Source: Blastococcus mobilis
Lineage (GTDB): Bacteria; Actinomycetota; Actinomycetes; Mycobacteriales; Geodermatophilaceae
NCBI RefSeq assembly: GCF_900188025.1
Contig: NZ_FZNO01000002.1
Span: 186,001-250,000, forward strand
Reading direction: 5' to 3'
DNA: 64,000 bases
The notes under the pieces were generated by a model, which saw only the letters and a list, made by a program, of their open reading frames with translations, made no database searches and was not told the DNA's origin. The translations under genes and the position numbers were made by a program. Positions 4,136 through 21,366 of the stretch are shown in pieces. Numbering within the stretch: the first letter of the stretch is position 1; each line of letters starts with the position of its first letter.

Positions 4136-6856
4136 TCACATCGGGCTGCGCATCCGTCGGGCACCGGGGTCGACGCGGGCGGTCGGCGGGCCGACGCGCC
4201 CCCTGGCCCCGGCCACCACGAGCGAGCGACCGCCGTGCCAGGGGCGGGGCGGCCCGACGATCACCGGCTCCAGCGTCAGCCGCAGCACCTCGGGCAGGTC
4301 GTCGGCGAGGCGCGCGACCCGGAGCAGCAGGTTCTCCAGCGCCGCGAGGTCGACGGGCTCGGACCCCCGGTAGCCGTCGAGCAGTGGGAATGCGCGCGGG
4401 GCGCGCACGAGCTCCGCCGCGTCCAGGTCGGTCAGCGGCAGCGTCCGGTAGGCGCGGTCGCCGAGCAGGTCGGTGGCCACTCCCCCGAGGCCGAAGCTGA
4501 CCAGGGCACCGAAGGAGGGGTCGTCGACGATCTCCACGACCGTCGCGACGCCGGGTGCCGCCATCTCCTGGACGACCACGGGGTCGCCCGACGGGATCGC
4601 GGCGAACGCGGCCCGCACCGCGTCGGCGTCGATGAGATCCAGGCGCACTCCACCCAGGTCGGATCGGTGCCGCAGCCACGGTGCCGTCGACTTCAGCACC
4701 ACCGGGTAGCCGATCTCCCCGGCGGCGGCGACCGCCTCGTCGGCGTCGGTGGCCGTCCGCGTGCCGAGCAGCGGCACCCCGTAGCCGGCCAGCAGCGTGA
4801 TGAGCTCCTCGTCGGTGAGCTCCCGGCCGGCCGGGGCGTCGGCCAGCACCCGCCGCACGAGGGCCTTCCCCGCCGGCTCGTCCACGTCGGACAGCTCGGG
4901 CACCTGACCGACCGGCCGCCGCCGCCAGCGGGCGTACTCCGCGACCTTCGCCAGCGCGATGACCGCCCGCTCCGGCGTGGAGTACGAGGGCACCGAACCG
5001 CGGGCCGGCATGCCGTCCTGGTCCAGGACGGCGAGCTCCGGTGGGATGCCCTCGGTGGACAGGAAGCTCGCCACGATGGGCTTGGCCGACCCCTGGGCGA
5101 CGTCGCGCAGCGCGGGCCCGTACTCCTGGGACCCCGCCATGAGCGGCGGCAGGAACACCGCGACCACGGCGTCCACGTCGTCGTCGTCGACCGCCGCCTG
5201 CAGCGCTGCCCGGAACTGCTCGGGCCCGCCGTTCACACCGATGTCGACCGGCGCCTCGTGCGCCAGCTCCAGCCTCTCCTCCAGGACGGCATCGGCCACC
5301 AGGACGCCGATCGCGGTGGAGTTCCCCACGACGGCGACCCGCGGCCCGTCGGGCAGCGGCTGGTGGGCCAGCAGGCTGCCCACGTCGAACATCTGTGCCA
5401 CGGTGTCCACCCGGATGACACCCGCGGACGCGAAGAGGGCCGCCACCGACTGCTCGGGCACGGTGACCGACGTGCCCACCAGCCCGGGGGTGACGCTCAC
5501 GTGCCGGCCGCTCTTCACCGCCACGACGGGCTTGGTCCGCCCGACGCTGCGGGCCAGCCGCGCGAACTTCCGTGGGTTCCCGAAGCTCTCCAGGTGCAGG
5601 AGCACCACCTCGGTGCCCGGGTCGGTGGCCCAGTACTGGAGCAGGTCGTTGCCGCTGACATCAGCCCGGTTGCCGGCGGAGACGAAGGTGGACAACCCCA
5701 GGTCGCGGCTGCGCGCCCGCTCGAGCAGCGCGACCCCCAGCGCGCCGGACTGGGCGAAGAACCCGACCCGGCCGCGGCCGGGGATCATCGGCGCGAGGCT
5801 GGCGTTCAACCGAACCTCGGGATCGGTGTTGACCATGCCCAGGCAGTTCGGGCCGACCACCCGCATCCCCGAGGCGCGAGCGGCCGCTACGAGCTGCCGC
5901 TCGGCCGCCCGCCCCTCCGGCCCGGTCTCCCCGAACCCGCCGGAGACGACGACCAGGCCCCGGACCCGCTTGCGCCGGCAGGCCTCGACCACGGCGGCGA
6001 CCTCATCGGCCGGAACGGCCAGGACCGCGAGGTCGATGTCGTCGGGGATCGACTCGATGTCGGCGTAGGAGGGCACGCCGCGGACGTGCCGCACGCCGGG
6101 ATTGACCGGGTAGACCGGCCCGGCGAAGCCGTAGTCGAGCAGGTGCCGGAGCAGCGCGTTGCCGATCTTGCCGTCGTCGTTGCTGGCACCGACGACCGCG
6201 ACCGACGAGGGCTTGAGCAGCCGGGCGATGGACCGGGACTCGCTGCGCTGCTCCCGCTCGTAGGTGACGGCGAGCGCGTCCTCGGTCTGCTCGATCGGGA
6301 AGGTCAGATGGACGACGCCCTCCTCGTAGGAGCGCTCGGCCTTGTAACCGGCGTCCTGGAAGACCCGCACCATCCTGCTGTTCTGGGCCAGCACCTCGGC
6401 GACGAAGTTCTTGATCCCCCGCTCCCGCCCGGCGGCAGCCAGGTGCTCCAGCAGCACCGACCCCAGGCCACGGCCCTGGTGGGCGTCCTCGATGAGGAAG
6501 GCGATCTCGGCATCGTCGGTGCCGGGGTACCGGTCGAACCGGCCCACACCGATGATCTGATCGCCCAGCAGCACGACGAAGGCCACCCGGTCGACGTGGT
6601 CGACGTGGGTGAACCGGTGCAGGTCGCGGTCGGAGAGCCGCTTCATCGGGCCGAAGAAGCGGTAGTAGCGGGTCTGGTCGCTGCTGCGCTCCATCAACCC
6701 GACCAGGGCCTCGGCGTCCTCCGGGCAGATCGGCCGCAGATGGACCGTCCCGCCGTCGGCGGCCACGATGTCAGCCTCCCAGTGCGGAGGCGGCGCCGGG
6801 CGGTCCTCGGGTGCGTCGGGGGTGGCGTCGAGGTCGGTGGTGGTCTGCTCAGTCAC
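4136..6856 (-). CDS. Protein acetyltransferase: N-terminal GNAT fused to ADP-forming acyl-CoA synthetase-like domains (Pat/PatA-like)
   Basis: 906 residues. The GNAT domain is at about 25-195 (FLIEDAHQGRGLGSVLLEHL is the acetyl-CoA loop). The CoA-binding domain begins with SVAVVGASNDDGKIGNALL near 215, followed by succinyl-CoA-ligase-like and ATP-grasp regions to about 885. GNAT-first order is typical of actinomycete lysine acetyltransferases such as Streptomyces PatA; E. coli PatZ has it last. These enzymes acetylate acyl-CoA synthetases and switch them off. The GTG start (6854-6856) lies inside the end of acuC (GTGACTGA overlap), so the pair is co-transcribed and probably translationally coupled. 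Confidence 0.88.
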   Translation of the reverse strand: MTEQTTTDLDATPDAPEDRPAPPPHWEADIVAADGGTVHLRPICPEDAEALVGLMERSSDQTRYYRFFGPMKRLSDRDLHRFTHVDHVDRVAFVVLLGDQIIGVGRFDRYPGTDDAEIAFLIEDAHQGRGLGSVLLEHLAAAGRERGIKNFVAEVLAQNSRMVRVFQDAGYKAERSYEEGVVHLTFPIEQTEDALAVTYEREQRSESRSIARLLKPSSVAVVGASNDDGKIGNALLRHLLDYGFAGPVYPVNPGVRHVRGVPSYADIESIPDDIDLAVLAVPADEVAAVVEACRRKRVRGLVVVSGGFGETGPEGRAAERQLVAAARASGMRVVGPNCLGMVNTDPEVRLNASLAPMIPGRGRVGFFAQSGALGVALLERARSRDLGLSTFVSAGNRADVSGNDLLQYWATDPGTEVVLLHLESFGNPRKFARLARSVGRTKPVVAVKSGRHVSVTPGLVGTSVTVPEQSVAALFASAGVIRVDTVAQMFDVGSLLAHQPLPDGPRVAVVGNSTAIGVLVADAVLEERLELAHEAPVDIGVNGGPEQFRAALQAAVDDDDVDAVVAVFLPPLMAGSQEYGPALRDVAQGSAKPIVASFLSTEGIPPELAVLDQDGMPARGSVPSYSTPERAVIALAKVAEYARWRRRPVGQVPELSDVDEPAGKALVRRVLADAPAGRELTDEELITLLAGYGVPLLGTRTATDADEAVAAAGEIGYPVVLKSTAPWLRHRSDLGGVRLDLIDADAVRAAFAAIPSGDPVVVQEMAAPGVATVVEIVDDPSFGALVSFGLGGVATDLLGDRAYRTLPLTDLDAAELVRAPRAFPLLDGYRGSEPVDLAALENLLLRVARLADDLPEVLRLTLEPVIVGPPRPWHGGRSLVVAGARGRVGPPTARVDPGARRMRSPM

Positions 6857-8030
6857 GTGGGTCGTCCGGGTCGAGGCCGAAGTAGGGGAAGGTCGCGCGC
6901 CGGGTGCGCATCACGGCCCGGTCGACGCGGGACTCGGTGAAGGTGTCCCACCGCGAGAACCCGGTGTAGCCGCCCTCGGTCATGTGGGTCGGCGGCCTCG
7001 CCCGCAGACCACGCCGGACGACGTCCTCGCGCCAGGACTCGGGGATCTCCGTCGCCGGATCGAGCGGAGCGCCGGCCACCTCAGCGAGCAGGTGGGTCCA
7101 GGCACGGGGCACGCAGCGCACCAGGCCGTAGCCACCCCCGCCGAGGACGACCCACCGTCCCTCGCAGATCTCGTGGGCCAGCTCGTGCATCGCCTTGTAG
7201 CTGGCGCGCTGCCCGTCGACGGTCAGGGACAGATCGGCCAGTGGGTCCTCGTGGTGGGCGTCGCAGCCGCACTGGGTGACGATGATCTGCGGCTGGAAGG
7301 CCCGGAGCACGCCGGGGACGACGGCGGTGAACGCCCGCAGCCAGGCGGAGTCGTCGGTCCCGTTGGGCAGGGCCAGGTTCACCGCGCTGCCCATCGCCTT
7401 GTCGGGATCACCGGTCTCCTCGGGATAACCAGTGCCGGGGAACAGTGTGAGCGGGGTCTGGTGGACGCTCACCGTGAGGACGCGGGGGTCGTCGTAGAAG
7501 GCGGCCTGGACGCCGTCGCCGTGGTGCACGTCGAGGTCGACGTAGGCGATCCGCTCGTACCCCTTGCCGAGCAGCCAGGCGATGGCGATCGCCGCGTCGT
7601 TGAACACGCAGAATCCGGACGCGGAGCTGCGCATCGCGTGGTGCAGGCCACCGGAGATGTTGACCGCGTGCTGGGCCTGCCCCTCGTGCACCCGCTGGGC
7701 GGCCAGGACGGTGCCGCCGGTGATCAGGGCGGCGGCGTCGTACATGTCCTCGAAGATCGGGTTGTCGGCCGTGCCCAGGCCGTGCCCGACGCCGGGATCG
7801 GTAGGAGCCCGCCGGACCGCTTCCAGGTAGGCCGGGTCGTGCACGAGGGTCAGCAGGTCGACGTCGGCCGGCGTGGGCTTCAGCAGCTCGAGCCGATCGT
7901 TCCCCAGCACGCCGAGGCTGTCGGCCAGCCGCATGGTCAGGTCCAGGCGGACCGGGTGGAGCGGGTGGTCGCCACCCATCGTGTAGCCCAGCAGCGAGTC
8001 GTCCCAGACCACGGTGATCGCGTCGCTCAC
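6849..8030 (-). CDS. acuC: Acetoin utilization protein AcuC (class I/II HDAC-family deacetylase)
   Basis: 393 residues with the zinc-dependent deacetylase core: GGLHHAMRSSASGFCVFNDA, then YVDLDVHHGDGVQAAFYDD and a late GGGGYG motif. AcuC deacetylates acetyl-CoA synthetase and opposes a GNAT acetyltransferase; here that partner is the next gene, overlapping by 8 bases. An upstream in-frame start at 8174 only translates repeat DNA. I chose GTG 8030 because it has GAGGAGG just upstream and the protein then begins SDAITVVWDDSLLGY, as in homologues. Its GTG overlaps the TGA of the preceding repeat mini-ORF. Confidence 0.9.
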   Translation of the reverse strand: MSDAITVVWDDSLLGYTMGGDHPLHPVRLDLTMRLADSLGVLGNDRLELLKPTPADVDLLTLVHDPAYLEAVRRAPTDPGVGHGLGTADNPIFEDMYDAAALITGGTVLAAQRVHEGQAQHAVNISGGLHHAMRSSASGFCVFNDAAIAIAWLLGKGYERIAYVDLDVHHGDGVQAAFYDDPRVLTVSVHQTPLTLFPGTGYPEETGDPDKAMGSAVNLALPNGTDDSAWLRAFTAVVPGVLRAFQPQIIVTQCGCDAHHEDPLADLSLTVDGQRASYKAMHELAHEICEGRWVVLGGGGYGLVRCVPRAWTHLLAEVAGAPLDPATEIPESWREDVVRRGLRARPPTHMTEGGYTGFSRWDTFTESRVDRAVMRTRRATFPYFGLDPDDPRD

Positions 8031-8107
8031 GTGTCCTCCTCGCTGGCGCTCGTCGCCCCCGTTCGCGGCGCTGCTCTGCCCCTGCGTGAACTCGCAAGCT
8101 CGCTCAC
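8027..8107 (-). CDS. Repeat-encoded 26-codon mini-ORF 1, coupled to acuC
   Basis: GTG at 8105-8107 follows a GAGGAGG ribosome-site-like stretch; the TGA at 8027-8029 overlaps the acuC GTG as GTGA. The peptide starts VSELASSRRGRAAPRTG and ends EEDT. It is a copy of a 77-bp tandem repeat. Translation is inferred from the ribosome site and overlap only. Confidence 0.35.
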   Translation of the reverse strand: MSELASSRRGRAAPRTGATSASEEDT

Positions 8108-8184
8108 GGGCCCTCCTCGCTGGCGCTCGTCGCCCCCGTTCGCGGCGCTGCTCTGCCCCTGCGTGAACTCGCAAGCTCGCTCAC
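8104..8184 (-). CDS. Repeat-encoded 26-codon mini-ORF 2
   Basis: Same layout as mini-ORF 1: GAGGAGG, GTG at 8182-8184, and a TGA at 8104-8106 overlapping the next GTG as GTGA. The peptide is identical except that it ends EEGP. Confidence 0.3.
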   Translation of the reverse strand: MSELASSRRGRAAPRTGATSASEEGP

Positions 8185-8261
8185 GGGCCCTCCTCGCTGG
8201 CGCTCGTCGCCCCCGTTCGCGGCGCTGCTCTGCCCCTGCGTGAACTCGCAAGCTCGCTCAC
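8181..8261 (-). CDS. Repeat-encoded 26-codon mini-ORF 3 (first in transcription order)
   Basis: GTG at 8259-8261 with GAGGAGGGCCC directly upstream; the stop at 8181-8183 overlaps the mini-ORF 2 start as GTGA. Same peptide as mini-ORF 2. Confidence 0.3.
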   Translation of the reverse strand: MSELASSRRGRAAPRTGATSASEEGP

Positions 8262-8366
8262 GGGCCCTCCTCGCACTGTCCCCGGACGTGAGCCGGCACA
8301 CGCACGCTCGCGCCGGACGCTACCCGGTGACCACCGGCCAGGCTCGTTCCCGGACCACTCGTCCGG

Positions 8367-8399
8367 TTGACCGGCGCAGATCGTGCTCCCCCGTAGACT
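8367..8399 (+). promoter_or_regulatory. Possible ideR promoter
   Basis: TTGACC (8367-8372) and TAGACT (8394-8399) resemble -35 and -10 boxes, but the 21-base spacer is long. The TAGACT box is the better-supported half. No IdeR box (TTAGGTTAGGCTAACC type) was seen. Confidence 0.3.
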
Positions 8400-8422
8400 T
8401 GCCGTGACACGGAGGAGTACCT

Positions 8423-9148
8423 GTGAACGACCTCATCGACACCACGGAGATGTACCTCCGGACGATCTTCGAGCTGGAGGAGGAGGGGATCGTCCCGCTG
8501 CGCGCGCGCATCGCGGAACGGCTCCACCAGAGCGGCCCCACGGTCAGCCAGACGGTGGCCCGGATGGAGCGCGACGGCCTGCTGACCGTCGAGGGCGACC
8601 GGCACCTGCAGCTCTCGGACGAGGGACGCCAGCTGGCGACGGCGGTCATGCGCAAGCACCGGCTGGCCGAGTGCCTGCTCGTCGACGTCATCGGCCTCGA
8701 CTACGCCGACGTGCACGAAGAGGCGTGCCGGTGGGAGCACGTCATGAGCGAGGCGGTGGAGCGCAAGCTGCTCAGCCTGCTCGGCAACCCGTCGGTCTCT
8801 CCCTTCGGCAACCCGATCCCGGGCCTCGACGCGCTGCGCGGAGAGGACGGCCGGGCTGGGGAGACCTCGGCGGTGCTCGACTCCCTCACGCTGCTGAGCA
8901 CGACGGCCACCGTGGAGGGCCGCCCGGTGATCATCCGGCGGATCAGCGAGCAGCTGCAGGAGAACACCGAACTGCTGCGCCTGCTGGCCCGGCAGGGCGT
9001 GCGGCCGGGCGCGACCATGACCGCACGGCTGGTGGAGGGCTCGGTCAGCCTCGACGGCGAGCTCCTGCCCATGGGCGTCGCCCACCACCTGTTCGTCAGC
9101 GCTGTCGACGAGGAGCTCACCCCGCTGGAGGCCGCGCCCCGGCTCTGA
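8423..9148 (+). CDS. ideR: Iron-dependent repressor IdeR (DtxR family)
   Basis: 241 residues. The winged helix is at 1-70 (MYLRTIFELEEEGIVPLRAR; SGPTVSQTVARMERDGLL). The metal-binding and dimerisation domain carries the family signature EEACRWEHVMSEAVERKLL and SPFGNPIPGLD, including the Cys, Glu and His metal ligands. The C-terminal SH3-like domain is complete, as in the long IdeR/DtxR form. It should sense Fe2+ and repress iron uptake and siderophore genes; none lie nearby. ATG 8423 follows ACACGGAGGAG. It diverges from the acuC operon. Confidence 0.93.
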   Translation: MNDLIDTTEMYLRTIFELEEEGIVPLRARIAERLHQSGPTVSQTVARMERDGLLTVEGDRHLQLSDEGRQLATAVMRKHRLAECLLVDVIGLDYADVHEEACRWEHVMSEAVERKLLSLLGNPSVSPFGNPIPGLDALRGEDGRAGETSAVLDSLTLLSTTATVEGRPVIIRRISEQLQENTELLRLLARQGVRPGATMTARLVEGSVSLDGELLPMGVAHHLFVSAVDEELTPLEAAPRL

Positions 9149-17080: not shown

Positions 17081-18166
17081 ATGACCATCACGACGACGAC
17101 CCGGCGGGACCGGATGCTTCGGACTGCAGCGGTCCCCACCGCTATTGCGGCCGCTTCCGCATTTCTGCTGGTTTCGGCACTGCCTGCATCGGCGGGTCCG
17201 GGCGGCGGCGAGAACGAGCCGAAGGTGACGCTCTCTCACGCGACCGGGTCGGCGGCCAATCCCTACGTCCAGATCACCGTGGCGGCGGCGGGGGCCTACA
17301 ACGGCCACTACAGCCAGCACGAGCACCATGGCGAAGGCGACATCATCCCGCCCTTCAGCTACCAGGGGCAGACGTACTCGCTGAACTGGGACGCCGCCGG
17401 CCAGGCGACCTTCGGCAACGGCTGCGAGGCACCCGCCGACTCCGCCAACCCGAGCAACCCCGGCAACCCGAGCAACCCCGGCAACCCGAGCAACCCGAGC
17501 AACCCGAGCCCCCCGAGTCACCCCGGCAACCCGAGCAACCCGAGCCCCCCGAGTCACCCCGGCAACCCGAGCAACCCGGGCAACCCGAGCAACCCCGGCA
17601 ACGAGCCGAAGGTGACGCTCTGCCACGCGACCGGATCGGCGACCAATCCCTACGTCCAGATCACCGTGGCGGCGGCGGGGGCCTACAACGGCCACTACAG
17701 CCAGCACGAGGACCTCGGCCAGGGCGACATCATCCCGCCCTTCAGCTACCAGGGGCAGACCTACTCCCTGAACTGGGACGCCGCCGGCCAGGCGACCTTC
17801 CGCAACGGCTGCAAGGCGCCTGCCACGCCGGGCACCCCCGGGACTCCGGGCACCCCGGGCACTCCGGGCACCCCGGGCACTCCGGGCCCCCCCGGCACCC
17901 CGGGCACCCCCGGCACCCCGGGCACCCCCGGCACCCCGGGCGGGGGTGGCCAGGTGGTCGTCGCCGCCCCGCAGGCCGGCACCCCGCAGAGCCGGCCGTC
18001 GACCGCTGCGACGCCGTCCTCCGTGGCCGGTCCCATTCCCGGGGCCGCGGATGCCGGTAAGGGTCTGGCCGGCGGATGGCAGCTTCCCGCAGGCCTGACG
18101 CTCGCCACGCTGGGGGCGCTCGCCGGCGGGACCGCCCTCTACCGCCGCAAGCTCCTCGGCAGCTGA
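17081..18166 (+). CDS. Secreted surface protein with two duplicated domains, Pro-rich and collagen-like stalks and a sortase-type C-terminus
   Basis: 361 residues. Signal peptide 1-38 ends ALPASA. Domain copy 1 (46-115) and copy 2 (175-244) share HATGSA-NPYVQITVAAAGAY and GDIIPPFSYQGQTYSLNWDA. They are joined by an Asn-Pro-Ser/Gly linker (122-174). A Gly-Thr-Pro collagen-like run spans 251-286. The C-terminus has LPAG (335-338), a hydrophobic stretch and YRRK, a cell-wall sorting signal. Copy 2 has Cys181 and Cys244, a likely disulfide. Copy 1 has Ser52 in place of the first Cys, leaving Cys115 unpaired. ATG 17081 follows GAGACGGGG. The next gene is a sortase. Domain function is unknown. Confidence 0.85.
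   Translation: MTITTTTRRDRMLRTAAVPTAIAAASAFLLVSALPASAGPGGGENEPKVTLSHATGSAANPYVQITVAAAGAYNGHYSQHEHHGEGDIIPPFSYQGQTYSLNWDAAGQATFGNGCEAPADSANPSNPGNPSNPGNPSNPSNPSPPSHPGNPSNPSPPSHPGNPSNPGNPSNPGNEPKVTLCHATGSATNPYVQITVAAAGAYNGHYSQHEDLGQGDIIPPFSYQGQTYSLNWDAAGQATFRNGCKAPATPGTPGTPGTPGTPGTPGTPGPPGTPGTPGTPGTPGTPGGGGQVVVAAPQAGTPQSRPSTAATPSSVAGPIPGAADAGKGLAGGWQLPAGLTLATLGALAGGTALYRRKLLGS
17216..17812 (+). repeat. Internal tandem domain duplication in the surface protein
   Basis: Segments 17216-17425 and 17603-17812 (387-bp offset) are nearly identical in DNA, including long stretches of unchanged third codon positions, so the duplication is recent or kept alike by conversion. The spacer between them is built of short CCGAGCAACCCCGGCAA-type units. 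Confidence 0.85.
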
Positions 18167-20986: not shown

Positions 20987-21366
20987 TGGCGGGCGCAGTC
21001 GATGCACGTGCGGGCGGCCGGGCGGGCGGCGAGGCGTTCGGGGGCGATCGGGCGGCCGCAGCTCTCGCAGATCCCGTAGCCGCCGGTGTCGCGACGCGCC
21101 AGGGCCGCCTCGACGTCGGCCAGCCGCCGCCGCGCCTGCTCCAGCAGCGCTGCCACCTGCTGCCGCTCGAACGCGATCGTCGCGCCCTCCGGGTCGTGCT
21201 CGTCGTCGGCGTTGGACGCCCTGGAGGCGGCGACCACGCCGTCGAACTCGCGGCTCAGCGCCTCGATCTGGGCCAGCGCCGCCGCCCGCTCGGCCTCCAG
21301 CCGGCCCTCCTGCAGGGCCCCGCCGCGAGCTTGCGAGTGGTGGGGAGCAGGGGGGTCCTCTTTCAC
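20962..21366 (-). CDS. TraR/DksA-type C4 zinc-finger protein
   Basis: 134 residues. A coiled-coil region (EAERAAALAQIEALSREFD) is followed by DDEHDPEGATIAFERQQVAAL and a C-terminal zinc finger CESCGRPIAPERLAARP...CIDC. The DksA-like family binds RNA polymerase or acts as a small stress regulator. Start GTG 21366 overlaps the upstream methyltransferase stop as GTGA. The first ~20 residues are encoded by hairpin repeat copy D; no better start exists downstream without losing the coiled coil. Confidence 0.8.
   Translation of the reverse strand: MKEDPPAPHHSQARGGALQEGRLEAERAAALAQIEALSREFDGVVAASRASNADDEHDPEGATIAFERQQVAALLEQARRRLADVEAALARRDTGGYGICESCGRPIAPERLAARPAARTCIDCARQAPSRAPS
21301..21362 (-). 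repeat. Post-stop hairpin repeat, copy D
   Basis: On the minus strand, AGAGGACCCCCCTGCTCCCC directly follows the methyltransferase stop. Its CCCCCCTGC arm pairs with GCAGGAGGG (21313-21305) with one mismatch. The loop carries CCACTCGCAAGCTCGCGGC, related to the 77-bp repeats at 8035. Confidence 0.7.

Follow-up and report, generated by a model that had tools for sequence, protein, structure and literature searches.

The tandem array in front of the acuC-like histone deacetylase gene of Blastococcus is probably made up of three tandem copies of an insertion element that lies at start codons, carries its own translational coupling to the gene that follows and resembles the mycobacterial interspersed repetitive units (MIRUs), which Supply et al. 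reportedly described in 1997. Copies of the element end at gene starts throughout the genome and avoid stop codons in one frame, and two stems at their boundaries are seen by covariation. The array was analyzed within a window of 64,000 nucleotides, the whole stretch of DNA under study, to which all coordinates without a contig label refer.

The acuC array and its setting

A tandem repeat with a period of 77 (3.3 copies, 98% matches) was detected by TRF at 8023-8274. The array occupies 8274-8027 on the minus strand and, as described in the initial annotation, contains three 77-bp units that each carry GAGGAGG, a GTG and a 26-codon frame. Unit 1, the 5'-most (8185..8261), opens the mini-frame 8261-8181, unit 2 (8108..8184) the mini-frame 8184-8104 and unit 3 (8031..8107) the mini-frame 8107-8027; translation of units 1 and 3 yielded 26 codons and a TGA each. 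The proposed GTGA chain was also found in the sequence, since the TGA of each mini-frame overlaps the next GTG by 4 bases and the last GTG is that of acuC at 8030. The Shine-Dalgarno sequence of the element, GAGGAGG, is located before units 2 and 3 (8189-8195 and 8112-8118, minus strand) and before acuC (8035..8041, minus strand). The units had been called identical, which applies to units 1 and 2; unit 3 deviates from these at 2 bases close to the 3' end (GGGCCC vs GGACAC), and its peptide therefore ends in EEDT, not EEGP.

The start of acuC (6849..8030, minus strand), a GTG, was placed at 8030 by a codon-usage gene finder, and the protein matches Hist_deacetyl (PF00850) with an E of 6.4e-86. 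A divergent gene on the plus strand (8423..9148) encodes a DtxR/MntR-type regulator according to its domain matches (PF01325, PF02742). An Rfam match to Magnesium-II at 8341-8417 was sub-threshold (22.2 bits, cut-off 40) and was taken as chance. Elsewhere in the window, the ORF 17225-18166 contains nine-base tandem repeats at 17446-17595 and 17824-17941.

The -10-like motif TAGCGT is found 55 bp before unit 1 (8317..8322, minus strand) and also upstream of acuC in all seven congeners examined, at a distance of 53, 56, 57, 57 and 57 bp in five of them, 79 bp in G015 and 7 bp in G002. As these distances are alike in five of the seven congeners (53-57 bp), unit 1 occupies the position that the acuC start has in most relatives, on the downstream side of a likely promoter, and the array is probably transcribed. 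In G002 (L250), where TAGCGT precedes the acuC GTG by 7 bp, acuC may be leaderless. The array itself was absent from all seven congeners; a 15-bit match (E 0.0043) in the acuC leader of G015 is perhaps an eroded remnant.

Upstream of the array, GCGAGGAGGGCCC (8262..8274, minus strand) is probably the original acuC Shine-Dalgarno sequence, comparable to GAGGAGGGGCC before the start in G010. Nine bases, GCGAGGAGG, are common to the native and the element Shine-Dalgarno sequence. A single insertion at acuC may have been followed by tandem duplication through GCGAGGAGG, which would have moved acuC 231 bp downstream. Both inner junctions have GCGAGGAGGGCCCGTG, which is like the leader that precedes unit 1 and close to GAGGAGGGGCCGTG of G010, and the last junction reads GCGAGGAGGACACGTG, a kind common in the family. 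Because duplication through GCGAGGAGG would give such a pattern, the acuC junctions fit a simple duplication.

Copies in the genome and their position at gene starts

BLAST with the unit against the 5.09 Mb genome returned at least 52 hits, grouped into at least 40 sites, a count that covers the best 40 of 143 candidates. Single copies were present at 36 of the 40 sites, and the remaining four hold arrays of 2, 3 (acuC), 4 and 7 copies. One site of 28 bp (C62) is probably a chance match and is not listed by the covariance model R1, which was built from 32 copies of alignment A1. With R1, 78 matches at E up to 0.001 were obtained in about 65 places of the genome: 51 at the other 39 BLAST sites and another 27 spread over 26 new places, which include one further 2-copy array. 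One of these 27, C51:18648, lies within a stretch also scanned for BLAST-found copies. The initial annotation had called the repeat dispersed, which is true of the genome but not of the copy it named at 21301-21362. That segment was rejected, as the model assigns only 8.2 bits (E 0.43) to 21324-21339. It has one exact 14-mer in common with the unit; when 1991 stretches of 62 bp were drawn at random from the window, 4 had an equally long exact match, and simple arithmetic leads to about two stretches with such a match by chance in 64 kb.

The 7-copy array (G000:C51:4873-5415, L034) is located before a gene for which the 7 congeners examined show one copy or none, one copy being present in 2 of the 7 and decayed in one of these. 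At G000:C57:22913 and G000:C55:45106 the 5' part of the element is intact, and the 3' part is altered or missing.

ORF starts were assigned by codon-usage score to ORFs of at least 60 codons. All 37 full-length terminal copies at the BLAST-found sites end at an ORF start, as do 23 of the 24 further matches of at least 37 bits, the remaining one having a second unit after it; below 37 bits, 1 of 3 further matches ends at an ORF start. The genome-wide comparison that had been proposed thus showed that copies are not placed at random relative to start codons. The unit is oriented in the sense direction of the gene, whose start is usually RTGA and often part of a stop/start overlap. In most copies the 5' end of the unit is RTGA as well, and its 3' end brings its own Shine-Dalgarno sequence before the gene start. 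Owing to the RTGA at the 5' end, an upstream stop, or the native Shine-Dalgarno sequence with its start, is kept: the first bases of the element double as the stop of the upstream ORF at 15 of the 40 BLAST sites and in 15 of the 24 further matches. In the window, RTGA forms the start of 28 of 60 genes, and 11 genes have it as a stop with no start close by. Given these numbers, a result of 0 of 37 copies at a stop-only RTGA would be improbable were every RTGA an equally good target (chance about 5e-6, by arithmetic). The named loci were collected with a pattern demanding RTGA at the 3' end, and counts of position should therefore rest on the own genome. No clear downstream ORF was seen for 18 of the 118 named terminal copies, some of which are truncated where the stretch ends or lie before another copy; these 18 were left out of the spacing count (100 kept). 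Annotated gene starts in host genomes may be misplaced by such repeats.

For 20 sites, the congeners, 7 in number, were searched for the start of the downstream gene; this gave 129 matches, and 80 of the 129 were examined. The element (at least 37 bits) was present at 13 of these 80 orthologous starts. Clear empty sites, at which the upstream gene runs into the RTGA start, were observed in 4 of 4 cases each at C40:127627 and C64:9922; some of the other orthologous sites have an upstream sequence too diverged to judge. We infer that the element is mobile.

Within the Geodermatophilaceae, 24 of the 25 genomes searched have the element, with 2 to 81 model matches each. In a first search of other families, 8 of 16 genomes had weak matches, 1 or 2 in each, the best with an E of 1.3e-5. 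A sample of 298 genomes of the order, with at most 15 candidates scored per genome, contained 95 genomes that match at E up to 1e-6, 57 from the Geodermatophilaceae and 38 from other families. Among the listed genomes of this sample, 57 of 59 Geodermatophilaceae match and 2 do not, and the 183 unlisted misses were taken as other families, as the list runs by kinship. Besides the Geodermatophilaceae, hosts were found in the Pseudonocardiaceae and in four more families of the order, of which one is represented by a single match; those named among the matches listed are Geodermatophilus, Blastococcus, Modestobacter, Pseudonocardia, Amycolatopsis, Actinophytocola, Gandjariella, Sciscionella and Solihabitans. 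One genome outside the Geodermatophilaceae (G147) has 57 model matches, some in tandem. A copy is also carried by L159 (SPQJ01000049.1), labelled UNVERIFIED_ORG Bacillus sp. AZ43, a label that is probably wrong.

Coupling of the mini-frame to the downstream gene

The distance from the start of the unit to the start of the gene is 77 in 22 of 37 own, 69 of 100 named and 11 of 23 further own copies. A spacing of 2 mod 3, the coupling frame, was found in 27/37, 86/100 and 18/23 copies of the same sets, and in all 18 of the last set stop and start overlap by exactly 4. From other families, 30 of 101 matches were sampled, 2 of which could not be parsed; 25 of the 28 remaining copies have a 2 mod 3 spacing, with distances of 63 to 80, and 24 of the 28 show a 4-base overlap of stop and start; one of the misses comes from a locus that was read in the wrong direction. 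Coupled copies occur at distances of 59, 65, 68, 71, 74, 77 and 80, all of which are 2 mod 3. In the pooled set, from which 9 of 188 profile hits were set aside as partial, the stop overlaps the start by 4 in 127 of 164 copies, 120 of them with a 5' start codon. Against coupling stand the out-of-frame copies (10/37 own, 14/100 named, 5/23 further own), and the start codon at the 5' end is missing in 16 of 170 distinct copies. At four loci of G070, a genome of another family (L263, L270, L279, L285), start and start are 65 bases apart, with the same ends and the same coupling.

Only 1 of 110 distinct 77-base copies has an internal stop in the mini-frame vs 15.7 expected, with no fewer than 9 in any of 1000 column shuffles, which ignore the kinship of the copies. 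For frames 2 and 3 of the same copies, stops were close to expectation (29 vs 33.8 and 6 vs 6.8). The 2 mod 3 spacing and the stop avoidance in the mini-frame support, as a property of the family, the suggestion of the initial annotation that coupling is built into the repeat. We infer that the mini-frame is translated: a ribosome ending the upstream gene, or initiating at the native site, would translate it and re-initiate at the gene, so that an insertion would be nearly neutral.

The same data might be read as an ordinary neutral dispersed repeat, in which the position at starts and the open mini-frames merely reflect harmless survivors and shared descent and translation of the mini-frame has no role. 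Copy number indeed varies widely among the 24 matching family genomes, from 2 to 81 model matches, and some copies look decayed (L215). Yet stops are avoided in frame 1 only, the coupled distances between 59 and 80 are all 2 mod 3, no copy of 37 lies at a stop-only RTGA, and survival of harmless insertions would itself imply that the mini-frame matters; we consider this reading improbable.

Copy number had further been proposed to act as a dial for acuC, that is for deacetylase output. In its favor, in-frame coupling links the three units, which are probably transcribed, and at another site, C51:165833, copy number differs between species (four in the own genome, at least two in G012, one each in G011, G010 and G002, none in G015 and G009). 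This proposal was nevertheless not supported: the acuC array is absent from 7/7 congeners, 36/40 BLAST sites hold one copy, and in the 4-copy array G000:C51:165600-165903 (L036) a period of 75 breaks the coupling, so that units and gene form one open frame with no coupled mini-frames. Regulation of acuC by the number of units is accordingly judged very unlikely, and a start-codon element with built-in coupling is the preferred explanation of the array.

Boundary stems and related elements

Covariation among the copies pointed to two stems. Stem 1 is formed by unit bases 1-6 with 17-22 at the 5' boundary, and stem 2 by bases 41-50 with 75-84, which reaches the start codon and codons 2-3 of the host gene. 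Among the strongest position pairs in 102 in-register copies were 5:18, 42:83, 43:82, 41:84, 47:78, 1:22 and 50:75, and the pairs 37:43, 5:43, 18:82 and 18:37, which link positions across the stems, were also high. In alignment A3, 87.5% of the cells of both stems were paired vs 73.8% (sd 0.7) after shuffling, which here too leaves kinship uncorrected, and at most 53.4% after sliding, with a covariation score of 0.366 vs 0.144 and at most 0.062, respectively. Stem 2 alone was paired in 85.2% vs 68.5% shuffled and 61.0% in the best slid position; its count of pairs changed on both sides was reached by 79 of 500 shuffles. By family covariation, unit 3 of the acuC array (minus strand throughout) contains the 5' boundary hexamer S1, GTGAGC, at 8102..8107, the segment S2, GTTCAC, at 8086-8091, which pairs with S1 in the family, and the segment M, CGCGAACG, at 8060..8067 (unit positions 41-48). 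M is complementary to 8024-8031, the first acuC bases (8024..8030) plus the last base of unit 3 (8031), save for two G.A mismatches. At positions 44-45 the 102 copies read GA in 52, GC in 29, TC in 16 and TA in 0 (8.2 expected), as if tandem G.A were standing in for Watson-Crick pairs. TA is likewise absent from S2 positions 19-20 (0 vs 11.3 expected), where it is confounded with TAA in the mini-frame, whereas its avoidance at M 44-45 is not confounded.

In the 37 copies in which S1 and S3 are unlike at position 5, S2 matches S1 in 31 and S3 in 2, while M matches S3 in 28 and S1 in 8. The failure of M to match S3 in 9 of these 37 is a further point in favor of the neutral repeat considered above. 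With regard to a possible simple target-site duplication, S1 and S3 agree at position 5 in 99 of 139 copies vs 58.4, and at position 1 in 114 vs 105.6 (p 0.003). Of the 16 copies that lack the 5' start codon, 7 have stem 1 paired at 6/6 positions and 5 at 5/6; the stem is thus often preserved in copies that have lost the start of the mini-frame.

Both stems were absent from the minimum-energy fold of the acuC copy (z -1.39), and the stems therefore rest on covariation. The fold energies of the whole acuC array (z -1.38) and of three single copies (z -1.39, -1.04 and -0.04) were within the shuffle range. Stem 2 did appear in the minimum-energy fold of L190 and L306, the two orthologous copies analyzed in this way. 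An additional stem midway along the element is at most weakly indicated (mean MFE -8.13 vs -7.43 shuffled; 63% of the copies below their own shuffle mean).

Matched changes were sought at 14 sites with a filled orthologue. At C37:12016 the own copy has GTGACA with TGTCAC and that of G014 (L306) GTGAAC with GTTCAC; at C38:13864 ATG occurs with T and GTG with C, and a matched change in stem 1 was found at C85:15004 relative to L186. M did not track changes of the gene start at C63:94505 (L289), C77:29538 (own), C42:133545 (L321) and position 82 of C38:13864 (L225). Pairing of stem 1 drops a little with divergence (0.98, 0.97, 0.90; rho -0.26, p 0.009), that of stem 2 does not (0.90, 0.93, 0.93).

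The role of the stems may lie in mRNA structure or in guidance at the DNA level. Most likely, stem 2 would hide the start codon in the mRNA until the mini-frame has been translated, which would make the coupling obligatory. On the alternative reading the stems are a DNA-level device, by which a single-stranded element finds its target and its own ends through pairing, S2 guiding the left and M the right junction; the pairing would then record the choice of target, not a function in mRNA. Internal guides of IS200/IS605 elements base-pair with end sequences, and the Y1 transposase family works in such a DNA-guide-like way; in the present family, pairing with the junctions is seen by covariation. 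The correlation of S1, S2, M and S3 at position 5 speaks for DNA guidance, as do the match at position 1, where T22 occurs in 13 of 15 ATGA copies vs 6 of 136 GTGA copies, and the reach of M to host codon 3 (41:84 paired in 82/102 vs 55.6). The uncompensated changes in orthologues and the drop of stem 1 with divergence also resemble decay after a match at insertion. Conversely, a Y1 transposase was found in 0 of the 16 host genomes searched, one of which has 81 model matches (controls positive in 5 of 14), stem 2 pairing is steady with divergence, and two-sided changes are matched in orthologues at C37:12016, C38:13864 and C85:15004, although independent insertion at one start could produce these. 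DNA guidance is thus possible but rather doubtful, and the mRNA switch is preferred.

A broader proposal allows for either role. The elements may be mobile translation adaptors spread through the order, whose two internal sequences match the left junction and the opening codons of the host gene, be it as target guides or as an mRNA switch that re-matches after insertion, and which always land on and restore a working start. We put this forward tentatively, as a real possibility that falls somewhat short of being probable. Should the match of M to the first host codons serve as a guide, such elements would have a rule for their targets; should it serve as an mRNA switch, insertion without harm would have a physical mechanism.

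As short dispersed elements with hairpins, the copies also resemble REP/REPIN sequences and the IS200/IS605 group with their RAYT and Y1 transposases. They differ by the lack of a Y1 transposase in the 16 host genomes searched here and by their location at gene starts in one direction.

The closest likeness is to the MIRUs. In the passages at hand, MIRUs are described as mobile and as inserting at start codons, where their internal ORF is coupled to the gene at -4 and the impact is minimal (PMC12548453); three identical 77-bp MIRUs lie in the senX3-regX3 spacer of H37Rv (PMC4213456), copies range from one to seven between species (PMC2453075), and the 77-nt 5' UTR of M. bovis parA is wholly a class I MIRU (PMC4128351). 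The present family likewise lies at start codons, has an internal ORF coupled at -4 in most, but not all, copies, shares the 77-bp unit class and forms tandem arrays of 2, 3, 4 and 7, and it is dispersed (78 model matches) and polymorphic in presence between congeners. By architecture, set beside these published descriptions, the family appears to work like the MIRUs. The host here is Blastococcus, not Mycobacterium, while the parts of the sources available give the MIRU hosts as only M. leprae and the M. tuberculosis complex (PMC4213456) or as many mycobacteria (PMC12548453). The family also has two boundary-pairing stems, of which the MIRU passages at hand make no mention. New here, on sequence grounds, are thus the two covarying stems and a host range beyond the MIRU descriptions. 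A search by titles and the beginnings of abstracts, with thin coverage of subscription journals, returned no literature on this family outside mycobacteria, and four strings of the 77-bp repeat had no match in the literature text searched. An architecture familiar from tuberculosis typing is hereby extended to further actinobacteria, whose genomes have as many as 81 model matches and where insertion, coupling and copy-number change could be studied in harmless species.

Leader peptides with ribosome re-initiation offer a second parallel. According to the part of the source at hand, leader genes are found in excess 10-11 bp upstream in Actinobacteria, and there, too, a short frame is proposed to hand ribosomes to the next gene (PMC4833913). 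In the present family the leader is itself a repeat element and overlaps the gene by 4 bases.
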